NCBI GenBank assembly: GCA_019313025.1
Contig: JAFDCA010000005.1
Coordinates: 1 to 8,143, forward strand
Length of the DNA stretch: 8,143 nt
Reading direction: 5' to 3'
Source: Deltaproteobacteria bacterium
GTDB taxonomy: Bacteria; Desulfobacterota; Desulfobacteria; Desulfobacterales; UBA11574
The position numbers and the translations under genes are program-made. Positions 414-8,136 of the stretch are shown here, in pieces; within the stretch, counting starts at the first letter, position 1, and each line of letters opens with the position of its first letter. Under the pieces are notes generated by a model. That model was not told where the DNA came from and searched no databases. It saw nothing but the letters and a program-made list of their open reading frames with translations.

Positions 414-3400
414 TCAGAATAATTTGAGCTGCAACGGGCCTGTGCGGGGTTTTTTCCCTTGAATGGGGGCATCGTGTATTCGCAATTTTTTTTCAATTTG
501 TTGGACAAAGGACGATAGCGTTCGTTTCTTGGTTTTTCCGAATCTTTTTCTTTTTTTTGCAAAAGTAAGATAGAGCCTTTCCTTTGCCCGCGTCATGGCA
601 ACATAAAAAAGCCGTCTTTCCTCTTCGATATCAGACACAACGCCACCCGATGGTTGAAACGGCAACAGTCCGTTTTCGCATCCGACAACAAAAACTATCG
701 GAAATTCAAGCCCTTTGGCTGTATGTATGGTCATTAATGCAACACTTTCCGATTGGTGGTTGTATATGTCTGTGTCTGTTTGTAGTGCAGCTATCGCCAT
801 ATCGTTTGTGGTGTAAGAACCAACAGTTTTAAACATATCGATAATATGTTTAAAGGTGTCGTCTGTTTTTCGGCTCCAATCGCTGAATGTCGATACTTTG
901 GTGTTTTCCAATAAAAACAAAAGCTTTTGTTCTACGGACAATTGTTTTGTCTTTTTTCTTATTTCGAAAATTTTATGTAAGACATCTCCAAGTTTTATTT
1001 GGTTTACTTTCCCCATTTTACTGATGGGAAACCTGCGTGCATTCATCAGCGCTGATTTTAGTGAAAAACCGTTATGATAACCCCAGTTTTTAAATATTTG
1101 AATACCCTTACGACCAATGGTTGGCGTTATTATTTTTACACTTCTATCAAAGTCTGCATAACCACCCGTTCCTTCGACGACTTTTAATAATGAAATCAAC
1201 TCGCTGATATATTTAGTGTTGAACACGTTTTCTCTACTTACGATTTGATATGGTATTCCTGCTTGGCTGAAAACCTCTGACAAAACCCTGTTTTGTTCTG
1301 AAGTGCGGTACAACACGGCAAAATCTGAAAAACTTTTGTTTCTTGCATCGTGCTCACCGTCCACCATGCCAAAATCAATGGAATGAAAACCGATTCCTCC
1401 AATTAGCTTTTCTATGGTTTTTCCGATAGCCACAGCCTCTGCTTTTTCAGAATCGGTTTCGAAAACACAAATTGTTTTTGGACCATCAATTTCTGAATAA
1501 ATACGTTCTTGCAATGTATCTTTATCTTGAGATTTAATCACCTGATACGATCCATCGAGAATGGTCTGGGTGGATCTGTAATTTTGTGTTAGTTTTATAA
1601 TTTGGGCATCCGGATAGTCTTTGATGAATCTTTTGAAATATTGAACACTTGATCCTCTAAATCCGTAAATCGACTGGTTTGGATCGCCAACCACACAAAT
1701 ATTTTTTTCAACACCTGGCGGGGCAAGGGATTTGATAATTCTGTATTGACCATGATTTAAATCTTGATATTCATCCACAAAAATATATTTAAAAAGCGTC
1801 CGATAAGAAACCGCAACCTGATTTTCTGTTTCAAGTATTCGAACGGTTTTAAAAATAAGATCTTCATAATCGTAAAACTTTTGTATTTCCAATAAGTTTT
1901 GATACGATTGATATACAATTTGAAAAATATCATTGTTTTTAGACGGTATGATACCCGACCATTTTTCGGAGTCAAGTATGTTTTGTTTGGCGGATATTAT
2001 CCTTTCTAACAATATCCTTGGTTTTGTCTGTACCTGAATACCCATCTCTTCAACACGGTTGATAGCATCTAAAAGCAATAACTCCCGGTCTTTTTCATCA
2101 ATAATCGCATAAGATTTTTTTTCAAAATTATTTAAAATATGAAAGCAAAGACTGTGAAAAGTTCCTATAAAAGGCTCCATTTTCGATCTACCTAAGATGG
2201 TTTCAAGTCGCTGGCGCATTTCCTGAGACGCTTTATTCGTAAAGGTCACCGAAAGGATATTCTGTGCCGAAACCTTCTTTTTTCGTATAAGATATGCGAT
2301 TTTTTGAGTGAGGGTGTGTGTTTTTCCGGTTCCAGGGCCGGCAATAATGATAAGTGCACCCCCATCATGTTCCACAGCCTGTTGTTGTTCTCTGTTTAAT
2401 TCGATGTTTTTAAATTTATTTTCGACAGATTTTTCCGGTTTATCTTTGATATTCATATTAGAAGGTATAAGGGGTTTAATCTGTTGGTTTCTTTTCCTTC
2501 TTTTCTTTGATGGTGAATCGGTAGAATGTATAATAAAAAGAGGTTTTTGTCCTTTAAGTTTATTTCGTTCATCTTTGCTAAAAATTTTTATTGTACCAAA
2601 TTCTCCATCATATCCGGGTACAAGAGAGATTTTATTTTGGCGCACCCTTGTGATGGCTTCACCCAACAAGGGAAGTCCTGAAGTGTCTATAATATCTTTT
2701 TTTAACATCGTTAAGATGTCAAATTCAGGTCCAAGTTTTTCGAGTAAATTTCTGTAATTTTCCATCACTTTTTTTGAATTAGGACCTACTTTTAGAACTT
2801 CGGATAAGATCTCCACAAGGGGAATGATATGGTAATAAGGATGATATTTGATGGGTTTAGTGCCTTCCGATCGATCTGCAAGTTCTTCCACCCGGTATAA
2901 AACACCCAACGTCATCGGTTTTCCACAATTTGGGCAGATTCCGTCTTGTTCCCTTGTTTTGTTGGGCCATGAACGAACATCACAATTTCTATGTCCATCA
3001 AGGTGATATTTCCCTTCTTCTGGAAAAAACTCTAATGTGCCTAAAAATTTCTCTGGATCACCACTTTCAATAGCAGACTTTATGGCTGAAAACGACATGT
3101 CGGTATTAAAAAGATTGGCCTCCCTTCCCAATTTTAATGGCGAATGGGCATCAGAATTTGATACCAACGTAAGGCCGTCCAGTGCGGATACTCGCCAGTT
3201 CATCGCCGGGTCTGATGACAGGCCTGTCTCAACGGCGAATATAAACGGTGTTAGATCCTCAAAACATTCCTCTATAGAATCGAAACCTGATTTTGAACCA
3301 AATAGTGAAAACCATGGTGTCCAAATGTGTGCCGGGATAAAAAACGACTCATCAGATGTTTCAAGAAGTATTTCTAAAAGGTCCTTGGCATCAAGGCCCA

Positions 3401-3818
3401 GTATGGGTCTTCCATCGGATATTATATTTCCAATTTTATCTAATTTAGAATTAAAGTCTTCAACCTGATTTAAATCGGATAGAAACACGAGATTATGGTT
3501 TTTTCGGGTTTTATTATCTTTTTTATATATATTGCTTATTTCCGAAACCAACATAAAACGCACTTCTCCGCGGCATGATTTTGGAACTTTTTTGTCGCAT
3601 AATTTTGAAATGTCACCTTTTAACCTAAACAATCCGGGTTCCGCTGGTCTTAGTTTTTCTTTAATTTCAGCAAACCATCCCGGATGAGTAAAATCACCGG
3701 TTCCTACAACCGATACCCCTTTAAGTTGAGCTGAAATATAAATATTTTCCAAATCCAGATTTTTTGCCGTTGCTCTGGAAAAACGGGAATGAACATGAAA
3801 ATCAGCGATAAATTTCAT
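414..3818 (-). CDS. EndoQ-like PHP nuclease fused to UvrD/PcrA-type SF1 helicase, with C-terminal clamp-binding motif
   Basis: A 1,134-residue predicted DNA-repair fusion. Residues 1-415 resemble endonuclease Q, which nicks DNA 5' of deaminated bases and abasic sites. Candidate PHP metal ligands are H8, H10, D42, E93, H108, H164, D223 and H225. A zinc-finger-like set (H276, C279, C295, C298) follows, then the EndoQ-style ending PGYDGEFGTIKIF. Residues about 416-470 are a basic linker (KKRRKR at 438-443). Residues about 471-1110 hold a complete SF1A helicase: Walker A GPGTGKT (494-500), TFTNKAS, VDEYQDLN (681-688), GDPNQSIYGFRG, QNYRST, IHTAKGLEFP (1031-1040) and FYVAMTRAKERL (1071-1082). The protein ends in QLKLF, a fit to the clamp-binding consensus. 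The start ATG at 3818 begins directly with the PHP motif DFHVHS and follows a purine-rich AAAGAAAGAG. It is divergent from dnaN. Domain identities are strong; the combined activity is inferred. It should be cytoplasmic; no signal peptide or membrane segment was seen. Confidence 0.93.
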   Translation of the reverse strand: MKFIADFHVHSRFSRATAKNLDLENIYISAQLKGVSVVGTGDFTHPGWFAEIKEKLRPAEPGLFRLKGDISKLCDKKVPKSCRGEVRFMLVSEISNIYKKDNKTRKNHNLVFLSDLNQVEDFNSKLDKIGNIISDGRPILGLDAKDLLEILLETSDESFFIPAHIWTPWFSLFGSKSGFDSIEECFEDLTPFIFAVETGLSSDPAMNWRVSALDGLTLVSNSDAHSPLKLGREANLFNTDMSFSAIKSAIESGDPEKFLGTLEFFPEEGKYHLDGHRNCDVRSWPNKTREQDGICPNCGKPMTLGVLYRVEELADRSEGTKPIKYHPYYHIIPLVEILSEVLKVGPNSKKVMENYRNLLEKLGPEFDILTMLKKDIIDTSGLPLLGEAITRVRQNKISLVPGYDGEFGTIKIFSKDERNKLKGQKPLFIIHSTDSPSKKRRKRNQQIKPLIPSNMNIKDKPEKSVENKFKNIELNREQQQAVEHDGGALIIIAGPGTGKTHTLTQKIAYLIRKKKVSAQNILSVTFTNKASQEMRQRLETILGRSKMEPFIGTFHSLCFHILNNFEKKSYAIIDEKDRELLLLDAINRVEEMGIQVQTKPRILLERIISAKQNILDSEKWSGIIPSKNNDIFQIVYQSYQNLLEIQKFYDYEDLIFKTVRILETENQVAVSYRTLFKYIFVDEYQDLNHGQYRIIKSLAPPGVEKNICVVGDPNQSIYGFRGSSVQYFKRFIKDYPDAQIIKLTQNYRSTQTILDGSYQVIKSQDKDTLQERIYSEIDGPKTICVFETDSEKAEAVAIGKTIEKLIGGIGFHSIDFGMVDGEHDARNKSFSDFAVLYRTSEQNRVLSEVFSQAGIPYQIVSRENVFNTKYISELISLLKVVEGTGGYADFDRSVKIITPTIGRKGIQIFKNWGYHNGFSLKSALMNARRFPISKMGKVNQIKLGDVLHKIFEIRKKTKQLSVEQKLLFLLENTKVSTFSDWSRKTDDTFKHIIDMFKTVGSYTTNDMAIAALQTDTDIYNHQSESVALMTIHTAKGLEFPIVFVVGCENGLLPFQPSGGVVSDIEEERRLFYVAMTRAKERLYLTFAKKRKRFGKTKKRTLSSFVQQIEKKLRIHDAPIQGKKPRTGPLQLKLF
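417..431 (-). other. Predicted beta-clamp-binding peptide QLKLF at the C-terminus of the nuclease-helicase
   Basis: The last five codons before the stop encode Q1130-L-K-L-F1134, which fits the bacterial sliding-clamp-binding pentapeptide consensus QL(S/D)LF, with lysine at the variable third position. It follows a flexible, basic, proline- and glycine-containing tail (GKKPRTGPL), and such motifs typically sit at exposed ends of clamp clients. The divergent neighbour dnaN encodes a clamp with the usual peptide-pocket residues. Binding is inferred from the motif alone. Confidence 0.6.
489..2411 (-). other. UvrD/PcrA/Rep-like SF1A helicase region of the fusion protein (residues about 470-1110)
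   Basis: All canonical motifs of 3'-to-5' UvrD-family helicases occur in order: LNREQQQAV (Q motif), GPGTGKT (I), TFTNKAS (Ia), IGTFHSLC (Ib), VDEYQDLN (II), VVGDPNQSIYGFRG (III), TQNYRST (IV), LMTIHTAKGLEFPIVFVVG (V) and ERRLFYVAMTRAKERL (VI, with the arginine finger near R1077). The GTFHSLC and IHTAKGLEFP forms are typical of UvrD/PcrA rather than of RecB or AddA, and no RecB-type nuclease motif follows. The motor therefore appears catalytically intact. Its nuclease is at the N-terminus, not the C-terminus. Confidence 0.9.
2574..3818 (-). other. EndoQ-like PHP plus zinc-finger nuclease region of the fusion protein (residues 1-415)
   Basis: This part of the fusion is a full-length EndoQ-like unit rather than a degenerate remnant. 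It has HxH at residues 8-10, TGDFTHP at 40-46, the VSEIS glutamate at 93, NHNLVFLSD with H108, PAHIWTPW with H164, and SNSDAHSP with D223/H225. The metal finger reads H276-x2-C279 then C295-x2-C298, with histidine where archaeal relatives (as recalled) have cysteine. It is followed by LGVLYRVEELADR. EndoQ was characterised in Thermococcales and a Bacillus species as a nuclease acting at uracil, hypoxanthine, xanthine and abasic sites. The substrate here is inferred from family membership. Confidence 0.85.
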
Positions 3819-3876
3819 AACTCTTTCTTTACGATTCGTTTATTGATAAATACAAGGTAAAAACACTTGTAACATT

Positions 3877-3905
3877 CTTATAAACGGTATATATACTTAT
3901 ATCAA
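3877..3905 (-). promoter_or_regulatory. Sigma-70-like promoter of the nuclease-helicase gene
   Basis: Read on the minus strand, TTGATA (3905-3900, 5 of 6 to the -35 consensus) is followed by an exactly 17-base spacer and TATAAG (3882-3877, 5 of 6 to the -10 consensus). Transcription would begin near 3870, leaving an untranslated leader of about 50 bases before the ATG at 3818. The 10-base palindrome GTATATATAC lies wholly inside the spacer, so a protein bound there would block the polymerase. The AT-richness of the region raises the risk of a chance match. Confidence 0.55.
3887..3896. repeat. Palindrome GTATATATAC inside the helicase promoter spacer
   Basis: A perfect 10-base inverted repeat sits between the predicted -35 and -10 elements of the minus-strand promoter. 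Its core TATATATA is shared with a second palindrome whose centre is 32 bases away, about three helical turns. It may be one half of a paired operator, or only a consequence of alternating AT sequence. Confidence 0.35.
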
Positions 3906-3917
3906 ATAAAAATAAGC

Positions 3918-3929
3918 ACTATATATAGT
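3918..3929. repeat. Palindrome ACTATATATAGT upstream of the helicase promoter
   Basis: A perfect 12-base inverted repeat lies just upstream, in the minus-strand sense, of the -35 element of the nuclease-helicase promoter. It shares the TATATATA core with the palindrome at 3887-3896, on the same face of the helix if DNA is about 10.5 bases per turn. An operator role is inferred; nothing shows which regulator would bind. Confidence 0.35.
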
Positions 3930-4126
3930 ATTTTTAAAAGTTTTACATCGCTTTTAAACACATATTATAACAATCCTTTTTTATATTGATATTTTTCCAA
4001 TAAATAACTACTTATTAACAGCAAATTTTGTGTGTTTTATAATCGATAAATTTTATTTTATTTTAAACTTTTTTCTAACAATTTAAATACACTTTTCTTT
4101 TGTTATTTAAGTAAATTATAAAATTA

Positions 4127-4156
4127 TTGGCGTTATGAACAATCCTTCAATATTAT
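4127..4156 (+). promoter_or_regulatory. Candidate promoter of the dnaN-gyrB operon
   Basis: TTGGCG (4127-4132, 4 of 6 to the -35 consensus) and TATTAT (4151-4156, 5 of 6 to the -10 consensus) are separated by 18 bases. Transcription would start near 4163, about 27 bases before the dnaN ATG. The DnaA-box-like TTATGAACA directly follows the -35 element within the spacer, so DnaA could repress here if the box is real. Other -10-like AT strings nearby make this choice tentative. Confidence 0.4.
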
Positions 4157-4177
4157 TATATATCTATATAAATAAAT

Positions 4178-4183
4178 AAGGAA
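4178..4183 (+). promoter_or_regulatory. Ribosome binding site of dnaN
   Basis: AAGGAA lies 6 bases before the ATG at 4190 and fixes the dnaN start. It is the only strong Shine-Dalgarno-like sequence in the otherwise very AT-rich leader. Confidence 0.75.
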
Positions 4184-4189
4184 TAGATT

Positions 4190-5308
4190 ATGAAGTTTAA
4201 AATTCAAAAAGGCGATATTCTCGACACACTGTCCAAAGTACAAGGTATAACCGGGCGAAAAAGCAACTTGGCCATTACAACAAACATTCTAATAAAGACA
4301 ACGGATAAAGGAATCATGCTGGTTGTAACGGACCTTGAAACAGGTTTCGAAGGCGTATATCCGGCAAGTGTAGAAAAACAAGGGGTTTTAACGATAAATT
4401 CAAGAAAGTTTTACGAAATCGTCAGAGAGTTTCCTAGTGAAGAAATACAAGTTAGTGAATCTGATAACTATTGGATAAAAATAGGAAATAATAATGTTGA
4501 GTACAATATGGTAGGGTTAAATCCCAGCGATTTTCCAGAAACGCCAATAATAGAAGATGTCAACTTTTTTACCATCGATTCTGAAATTCTTAGAAAAATG
4601 ATTGAAAAAACAGTCATTATATCCGGGACTCCTGATGAAAAAAGGACTCATATCACTGGAATATATTTTGAAATTATTCATAAAGAGAATAAAAATGTTG
4701 TGAGAATGGTTTCAACTGATGGAAACCGACTTTCAAAAGCAGATTGTATTTATGAAAAAGACATACAACTGCCCCAGGATCCCGGTATAATTATTCCCAA
4801 AAAGGGAATGAATGAAGTTATAAAGTTTTTAGATACTTCAGGAACCGTTCAGATTGGTGTTAAAAATAATAATTTTATTATCAAAAAGGATTATGAGACC
4901 GTCATTATAAGACTTCTTGAAGGAGATTTTCCAGAATATGGTGATATCATACAAAGAGGGCCTTCTCACGCAATCCTTTTAGACAGAAAAAAGTTTTTGA
5001 TGATGCTTAAAAGAATGTCTATTTTATCTTCTGAGGACTACAAAGGCGTCATTTTTAATTTTAAAAAAGACAATATGTCTATTACCACAACAAATCCTGA
5101 TTTGGGTGAATCAAAAGAAGATATGGCTATTGACTATAAAGGCGATCCCATTGAAGTTGCCTTTAATCCGAGATACATCATAGAGATATTAGGCGTAATT
5201 GATACTCAAAATGTTGTTGTTAATATACTTGATAAAGAAAAGCCGTGTTTAATTGAAGGGGAAAACGATGATACATATTTAAGTGTCATCATGCCGATGA
5301 GAATATGA
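4190..5308 (+). CDS. dnaN: DNA polymerase III beta subunit (sliding clamp)
   Basis: DnaN forms a ring-shaped dimer that encircles DNA and tethers DNA polymerase III and repair proteins to the template. The 372-residue length is standard for three clamp folds of about 120 residues each. Recognisable features are MKF.I at the start, the [10 protein letters not shown] segment (residues 175-184, equivalent to TDGHRL in E. coli), [10 protein letters not shown] (241-250), AFNPRYI (324-330) and the C-terminal VIMPMRI, equivalent to E. coli VVMPMRL. Together these supply the usual hydrophobic pocket that binds client peptides such as QLxLF: T176, G178, R180, L181, V366, M368 and M370. The start is supported by AAGGAA six bases upstream. 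Its stop overlaps the gyrB start (ATGA, 5305-5308), so the two are probably translationally coupled. No dnaA lies immediately upstream and no recF separates it from gyrB, unlike the classic dnaA-dnaN-recF-gyrB order. Confidence 0.98.
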
Positions 5309-7770: not shown

Positions 7771-8136
7771 ATGTATATTCATAAGATACAAGCCAGGGAT
7801 TTGCCGGATCTTTGGTTTCAGGCTGTTCATGACATACTCGACCATGGCAGGAAGTTTATTATAGATCGCGGAAGTTATGAAGGACAAACACGGCTTGAAT
7901 ATGATTTTTTTACCGGACACATAAAATATCCGGGTACCCAACCGCTTTTGCCCGATATACCGCCATCCTGTGGCATACCTAACCCGGTGGAGGAAGCGTA
8001 TATATATGGGGGGGAAGGCTATGATAGATCGTATATCGAATATATTATGACCGGACAAAAAGAACCGGGTGAATCGTATACATATGGAGAAAGATTGACC
8101 CGGGCGCCAATCTCAGAGGAAAAGTTTCAGAGGTAA
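7771..8136 (+). CDS. thyA: Archaeal-type thymidylate synthase (ThyA family), N-terminal part ending at an early stop
   Basis: Thymidylate synthase methylates dUMP to dTMP using methylene-tetrahydrofolate. The 121 residues resemble the start of the divergent, archaeal-like ThyA branch: a helical N-terminus (ARDLPDLWFQAVHDILDHG), an RLEYDFFTGHIKYPG segment, a PLLPDIP.S.GIPNPVEEAY segment, and YTYGERL (103-109), the counterpart of the conserved YG.R in TS. Family members usually exceed 200 residues, and the catalytic cysteine lies well after this point. Here TAA at 8134-8136 stops the frame seven bases before the window edge, so the gene is truncated, frameshifted or mis-sequenced; which cannot be decided here. 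TAGGAA at 7754-7759 lies about 11 bases before the ATG, a long but usable spacing. It follows gyrB after 30 bases with no terminator visible, so is probably co-transcribed. The family call is moderately confident, from recalled motifs. Confidence 0.65.
   Translation: MYIHKIQARDLPDLWFQAVHDILDHGRKFIIDRGSYEGQTRLEYDFFTGHIKYPGTQPLLPDIPPSCGIPNPVEEAYIYGGEGYDRSYIEYIMTGQKEPGESYTYGERLTRAPISEEKFQR

Follow-up and report, generated by a model that had tools for sequence, protein, structure and literature searches.

A bacterial EndoQ-type nuclease fused to a UvrD/PcrA-type helicase carries putative sliding-clamp motifs

How is a damaged strand removed once endonuclease Q (EndoQ) has cut beside a lesion, and could a helicase built into the same chain do it? 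The EndoQ nick lies 5' of the lesion and leaves a 3'-OH and a 5'-phosphate, with strand displacement by a polymerase and flap cutting proposed as the next steps (PMC4357722); in the sources cited here, removal of the lesion is proposed rather than established. The question is raised by an 8,143-nucleotide stretch of DNA from a Deltaproteobacteria bacterium of the Desulfobacterales (the window; positions 1 to 8,143 of contig JAFDCA010000005.1, assembly GCA_019313025.1). It contains an open reading frame (ORF) for a protein of 1134 amino acids (aa) in which an EndoQ-type nuclease is joined to a UvrD/PcrA-type helicase, and both halves appear complete, in agreement with the first-pass annotation of this DNA. 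The gene, which has homologues of the same architecture, runs from ATG to stop without an internal stop at 414–3818 of the minus strand; the span had been given exactly, and the strand is added here. Frame 1 of the plus strand has stops throughout the same stretch.

The N-terminal part (residues 1–413; 2580–3818, minus strand) is an EndoQ-type PHP nuclease. PfuEndoQ, an archaeal nuclease that cuts on the 5' side of deaminated bases, matches residues 5–412 (E = 1.5e-51) at an identity of only 32–34%, and the NCBIfam model TIGR00375 matches residues 5–410 at 169.8 bits, below its curated cut-off of 326.6; nothing in Pfam scored above cut-off in this half. That cut-off is narrower than the EndoQ family as meant here, since it was reached by none of 395 genomes of one bacterial phylum, carriers of stand-alone EndoQ included; two of the three control genomes having a match did reach it. 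The candidate metal ligands H8, H10, D42, E93, H108, H164, D223 and H225 align with H8, H10, D42, E76, H84, H139, D193 and H195 of PfuEndoQ and are invariant in all 94 aligned relatives (40 long fusions, 10 short fusions and 44 stand-alone EndoQ). Equally invariant (94/94) are H164, G199 and S201, the counterparts of the Pfu residues that exclude normal bases (H139, G169 and S171; roles as assigned in the review PMC8307549). A zinc-finger-like segment (residues 276–298; 2925–2993, minus strand) places H276, C279, C295 and C298 in the alignment at the positions of Pfu C249, C252, C268 and C271, the first ligand being Cys in Pfu and His in the window protein and all 94 relatives. The predicted structure of this half has the overall EndoQ fold; the model used was alignment-based, a single-sequence prediction having reached a mean predicted local distance difference test (pLDDT) score of only 31.6 and been set aside. 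The full ligand set and zinc-finger-like motif listed at first pass are thus borne out, as is the assignment of residues 1–415 to EndoQ, since no other PHP family in the searched libraries matched as well. We would expect this half to nick 5' of uracil, hypoxanthine or an abasic nucleotide.

The C-terminal part (residues 473–1112; 483–2402, minus strand) is a helicase of superfamily 1A (SF1A). PcrA matches residues 473–1110 (E = 4.7e-94), the Pfam domains PF00580 and PF13361 are present, and motifs I, Ia, II, III, IV, V and VI, as we take them to be named, follow in order. Among these are the Walker A sequence AGPGTGKT (residues 493–500; 2319–2342, minus strand), invariant in 61 of 61 rows, and motif II, DEYQDLN, recognised in the alignments (residues 682–688; 1755–1775, minus strand). 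Nine motor residues (K499, T500, D682, E683, Q715, R748, G1036, T1076 and R1077) are invariant in 40 of 40 long and 10 of 10 short fusions, which upholds the earlier view that this half is complete; by analogy with its family, it would drive ATP-dependent unwinding in the 3'-to-5' direction. It belongs to the superfamily without being PcrA, UvrD or Rep itself, because its scores lie far below all three equivalog cut-offs (458.6 against 911.2 bits for pcrA, 348.9 against 1144.45 for uvrD and 375.9 against 951.45 for rep). Most fused helicases carry AGPGTGKT and GDPxQ, whereas most separate ones carry AGAGSGKT and GDDxQ. A helicase tree (68 rows, quick search) separates 51 fused members, window included, from 17 separate UvrD/PcrA/Rep-type helicases with a Shimodaira–Hasegawa-like approximate likelihood ratio test value of 100. 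The comparison covers these 17, E. coli UvrD and Rep among them, and a closer free-standing relative may exist beyond them; four separate helicases that were long, partial or of other build (L098, L110, L111 and L113) were left out of the alignment and trees. One of these, L098 (genome G013, a 985-aa frame), is a UvrD-like helicase with an extra C-terminal part and a Cys-rich end, where one might guess at a RecB-type nuclease domain.

The very end of the protein may tie it to replication. The bacterial clamp-binding motif is defined as Q-aliphatic-x-[L/M]-[F/L] and is C-terminal in several clamp partners (PMC11139829). The window protein ends in QLKLF (residues 1130–1134; 417–431, minus strand), which fits the strict definition and lies in a terminal segment predicted to be disordered. 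Conservation was read from a hand-picked alignment of 61 rows (the window, 29 of 120 protein matches and 31 of the 40 long fusions, with no short fusion): Q1130 is kept in 61 rows, L1131 in 48, L1133 in 57 and F1134 in 60, and across columns 1113–1129 no single residue occurs in more than 46. The strict motif falls within the last 15 residues of 113 of 114 close fusions (six of the 120 listed matches, of at most 1050 aa, are not counted), 28 of 40 diverse long fusions (38 once a loose form is admitted) and nine of ten short fusions. Thirty further fusions came from a sample of 118 genomes, and the 29 with a closed 3' end comprise 22 strict tails, four loose and three with neither. Stand-alone EndoQ proteins have the strict motif in 14 of 44 cases and the loose one in 40; of 21 separate helicases, drawn from the same set of genomes plus E. 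coli, none has the strict form and one the loose. The interior background per 15-residue window is 0.001–0.008 (strict) and 0.01–0.04 (loose). From this pattern the fusion protein probably binds the beta clamp, DnaN, via QLKLF. The tails of L014 and L015 read QQEITF or QQEIVF, outside the defined motif, and could reflect a change of partner or a degenerate motif.

A second candidate motif lies between the halves. Stand-alone EndoQ proteins end in sequences resembling IFSEEEKKEVSGQKSLF, and in the long fusions the same segment runs on into the linker; in the window protein it is IFSKDERNKLKGQKPLF (residues 412–428). Its last five residues, QKPLF (424–428; 2535–2549, minus strand), align with the C-terminus of stand-alone bacterial EndoQ and open a stretch with pLDDT below 50, the predicted disordered linker (residues 424–471; 2406–2549, minus strand). 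In the 61-row alignment Q424 is conserved in 56 rows, L427 in 58 and F428 in 60. The pattern Q..[LM][FLI] occurs here in 111 of the 113 close fusions that have an anchor (one of the 114 has none) and in 33 of 40 long fusions, against a background of 0.039 per 24-residue window; short fusions mostly retain only the terminal motif. Clamp-type motifs in bacterial EndoQ have been remarked on before, and TkoEndoQ binds PCNA at 55 nM via a C-terminal motif and is stimulated by it (PMC4858679). It seems that the helicase was added downstream of an EndoQ in which a clamp tether was already present, and the new end has a tether as well. Both clamp-binding-like motifs, and the shorter class of fusion, are additions to the first-pass annotation.

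Taken together, these features lead us to favour, with some confidence, a lesion-specific nickase that is tethered to the clamp and brings its own motor for unwinding. The EndoQ domain would flip out uracil, hypoxanthine or an abasic nucleotide and nick 5' of it, leaving a 3'-OH and a 5'-phosphate; the downstream strand would then begin, at its 5' end, with the lesion. The helicase would load at the nick and track 3' to 5' on the intact strand, thereby displacing the lesion-bearing 5' end. The choice of strand is decisive, because a motor that started at the 3' end of the nicked strand and followed that strand would move away from the lesion. QLKLF, perhaps together with QKPLF, would keep the protein attached to the DnaN ring. 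The 3'-OH would be extended by a polymerase bound to that clamp, and a flap nuclease and ligase would complete repair. That the motor should work on the nick left by its own nuclease is plausible, and the one-protein excision route suggested at first pass is a reasonable hypothesis, sharpened by the clamp motifs. The fusion would name an SF1A helicase as the partner for lesion removal after EndoQ incision and the clamp motifs as its platform. We are more doubtful of a bolder version, offered tentatively, in which the fusion is a widespread, one-protein, replication-coupled incision-unwinding machine whose clamp motifs flank the motor and straddle the dimeric DnaN ring, so that the nuclease can cut on the 5' side of a deaminated or abasic nucleotide and the motor peel away the damaged strand, with the ring's polymerase filling in at the same time. 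If true, this would amount to long-patch nucleotide incision repair with its own helicase.

Such fusions are not confined to the window. Among the best 120 of 7997 scored protein matches, 114 are longer than 1050 aa and all 120 have a UvrD helicase Pfam domain. Pfam PF27218 is also annotated on the best of these matches, but the Pfam search with the window did not report it. The first-pass annotation supposed that related fusions sit unremarked in databases, and many proteins of this architecture indeed carry names such as UvrD-helicase, PcrA, DNA helicase II, 'TIGR00375 family' or hypothetical, none of those shown being EndoQ. Its further supposition, that pipelines label them UvrD and miss the nuclease, is right in that no shown name says EndoQ and wrong for the several called 'TIGR00375 family', after the model for the nuclease half. 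By record title, 47 fusion loci fall to Thermodesulfobacteriota (14), Cloacimonadota (10), 'Myxococcota' (9, a doubtful label, the titles reading 'Deltaproteobacteria'), Aminicenantes (2), Spirochaetota (2) and, with one each, Calditrichota, Armatimonadota, Elusimicrobiota, Omnitrophota, Bacteroidota, Acidobacteriota and KSB3, the single records being drafts in which binning errors are possible; three have no phylum label. The 47 include L038 and L039, which lack an intact helicase, and a few loci cut by contig ends. Of the frames derived from loci, 12 lacking a closed 3' end, 15 duplicates and one with a broken N-terminus were dropped, and L013 (broken frame), L038 and L039 were then omitted as well.

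In the phylum to which the genome of locus L006 belongs, an EndoQ match was found in 81 of 118 sampled genomes and in 255 of 395 in a larger draw. EndoQ-type genes are therefore common in at least one bacterial phylum, against the published picture of a few bacterial groups (PMC4357722, PMC6202378). The match lies in a frame of at least 870 aa in 33 of the 81 genomes, with a helicase in the same frame in all 33 inspected (the opening 125 residues of L154 fall in a different frame), in a frame of 385–671 aa in 43, some of them cut by contig ends, and in fragments or weak matches in five. No genome among the 81 pairs a fusion with a further full-length EndoQ (G037 and G119 each show one additional match, weak and partial), so fusion and stand-alone EndoQ look like alternatives for one role; in 17 of 17 fusion genomes examined the single EndoQ is likewise the fusion.

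An EndoQ tree of 95 rows (quick search) places the 51 fused rows and three stand-alone ones (L051, L061 and L135) on one side with support 99, and the three labels on this tree need three changes, in keeping with one or a few fusion events plus some losses. Four groups have identical fused members in the nuclease and helicase trees: a 19-row Desulfobacterota-type group that includes the window, a 17-row Cloacimonadota-type group, the 10 short fusions, and L034 with L143 and L144. The order in which they join differs between the trees; the shared groups imply that the halves have been together for long. The short fusions (L125–L132, L140 and L142; about 980 aa) form one group in both trees, and over the compared stretch their helicases span 474–531 residues against 648 in the window and 558–659 in other long fusions. 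We read the missing part as the region of the 2B-type insert; the motor residues are kept in all ten and the terminal clamp motif in nine. The stand-alone EndoQ of L051, L061 and L135 lack a recognisable terminal clamp motif, and the available flanking DNA shows no relative of the fused helicase; they could be either motor losses or unfused outgroups. At L038 (7334–7774) all that is left of the helicase is a pair of remnants in a different frame, its middle being gone, and at L039 no helicase follows the nuclease within 2.1 kb downstream; the motor may have been lost in Desulfobacterales.

Beside the gene, and divergent to it, lie dnaN-gyrB together with a thymidylate synthase-like ORF. The proposed partner, dnaN, is at 4190–5308 of the plus strand (TIGR00663, E = 5.5e-80). 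Across 48 loci, dnaN lies 0.3–3.7 kb upstream in 15, all Desulfobacterota-like records, among them the cut locus L045 and the two loci that lack an intact helicase, L038 and L039; it was not found within 6 kb in L014–L016, nor in loci of other phyla, several of which have little upstream DNA. The gap between fusion and dnaN (3819–4189; 371 bases, G+C 18.6%) has no perfect DnaA box. The conserved ORF 3' of gyrB (7771–8136) is cut by the window end; its full-length relative at L002 (1026–1817, minus strand) has only a partial match to thymidylate synthase PF00303 (E = 4.2e-11), as of a divergent enzyme beside dnaN-gyrB. Positions 1–390 encode the C-terminal part of a cyclopropane fatty acyl phospholipid synthase (NF008686, E = 1.9e-61), and this cfa gene is convergent with the fusion. 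Elsewhere, a match to the uracil-DNA glycosylase (UDG) family at G009:C1:7221-7628 sits within a 798-aa open frame, possibly another fusion.

Several points weigh against a clamp-tethered nickase with its own motor. Nicking, unwinding and DnaN binding of the fusion protein are all predictions, and the 3'-to-5' polarity is the one expected of SF1A motors. A recognisable tail motif is missing from two of the 40 long fusions (L014 and L015), one of the ten short ones and three of the 29 further closed tails, and ten of the 40 have the loose form only. The internal motif is absent from nine short fusions (present in one), and QKPLF has Lys instead of an aliphatic residue at position 2; it fails the strict definition and fits the loose one, which makes its function less sure. 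In 17 fusion-bearing relatives chosen for spread, most of them drafts of unstated completeness, the UDG family is retained in 17, UvrC in 16 and MutL in 16, which makes the need for the fusion less obvious; nothing suggests that it replaces the glycosylase or UvrABC routes, and the earlier idea of a route independent of glycosylase and UvrABC finds no support. The motor also seems dispensable at times, since L038, L039, L051, L061 and L135 lack an intact helicase in the available DNA.

Of the alternatives, we consider it unlikely that the halves do separate jobs on one clamp, with the helicase clearing obstacles as an accessory replicative motor, much as Rep or PcrA would, and EndoQ only patrolling for deaminated bases, its nick not being unwound in cis. 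The long disordered linker and the presence of dnaN near the gene in the loci counted above would suit this, as would the separate UvrD/PcrA/Rep-type helicase frame (627–798 aa) that coexists in 15 of the 17 genomes (G003 has pieces only and G004 none among the listed matches) and gives the fused helicase a niche of its own. The long joint history of the halves in both trees argues the other way, and the lack, among the 81 genomes, of any with a fusion and a second full-length EndoQ suggests one joint role. It is improbable that the helicase acts first, remodelling DNA or stripping protein for EndoQ scanning or feeding deaminated single strands to the nuclease: EndoQ has activity on both single-stranded and duplex DNA (PMC8307549), but the purified enzyme cuts duplex without a helper (PMC4357722) and single-stranded abasic DNA more weakly (PMC6202378). 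There is a slim chance that the PHP half has come by drift to act on a different substrate, as a general phosphoesterase or exonuclease, and has lost lesion recognition; the sub-threshold TIGR00375 score and low identity to PfuEndoQ would allow it, and the invariant ligands and base-excluding residues are set out above. We give least credence to an anti-phage, Gabija-like nuclease-helicase directed at uracil-containing foreign DNA. PADLOC models for GajB match the helicase (best E = 3.7e-98) and a possible antiviral role has been raised for Bacillus EndoQ (PMC8307549), but GajB is itself a UvrD-family helicase and the match thus reflects shared homology. Moreover, no GajA-type (TOPRIM-ATPase) gene is found among the window neighbours (cfa in part, dnaN, gyrB and the thymidylate synthase-like ORF), the place near dnaN is kept in many Desulfobacterota-like loci, and none of 145 matching phage records covers 80% of the fusion.

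We found no description of an EndoQ-helicase fusion among the listed titles and opening lines of abstracts from the open-access literature, to which the search was confined. The closest known proteins are PfuEndoQ, TkoEndoQ, MacEndoQ and Bacillus pumilus EndoQ, which share the fold, metal ligands, zinc-finger position, base-excluding residues and C-terminal clamp or PCNA motif. As described in these sources they have no helicase and carry the clamp motif directly after the nuclease, whereas in the window protein that motif is internal and a second lies behind the helicase. Pyrococcus abyssi Pab0431 (COG1379), tied to PCNA in 2013 (PMC3820547), is presumably also an EndoQ. Compared with UvrD, PcrA and Rep, the fused helicases form one clade apart from the 17 compared, mostly with AGPGTGKT and GDPxQ, and end in a clamp motif. 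Gabija GajA-GajB likewise has a nuclease working with a UvrD-family helicase, but as two proteins, with another nuclease fold and in defence. Lhr belongs to another helicase superfamily. The E. coli protein doubles as repair helicase and uracil-DNA glycosylase (PMC10953399), and so combines a helicase and a uracil-acting enzyme in one chain, with a glycosylase in place of 5' incision. RecBCD, AddAB and AdnAB resemble the fusion in having an SF1A motor covalently joined to a nuclease. That nuclease is of the RecB family, works at DNA ends and is not lesion-specific. A link to the clamp may be a further likeness, E. coli RecBCD having been reported to bind it (PMC13254535).

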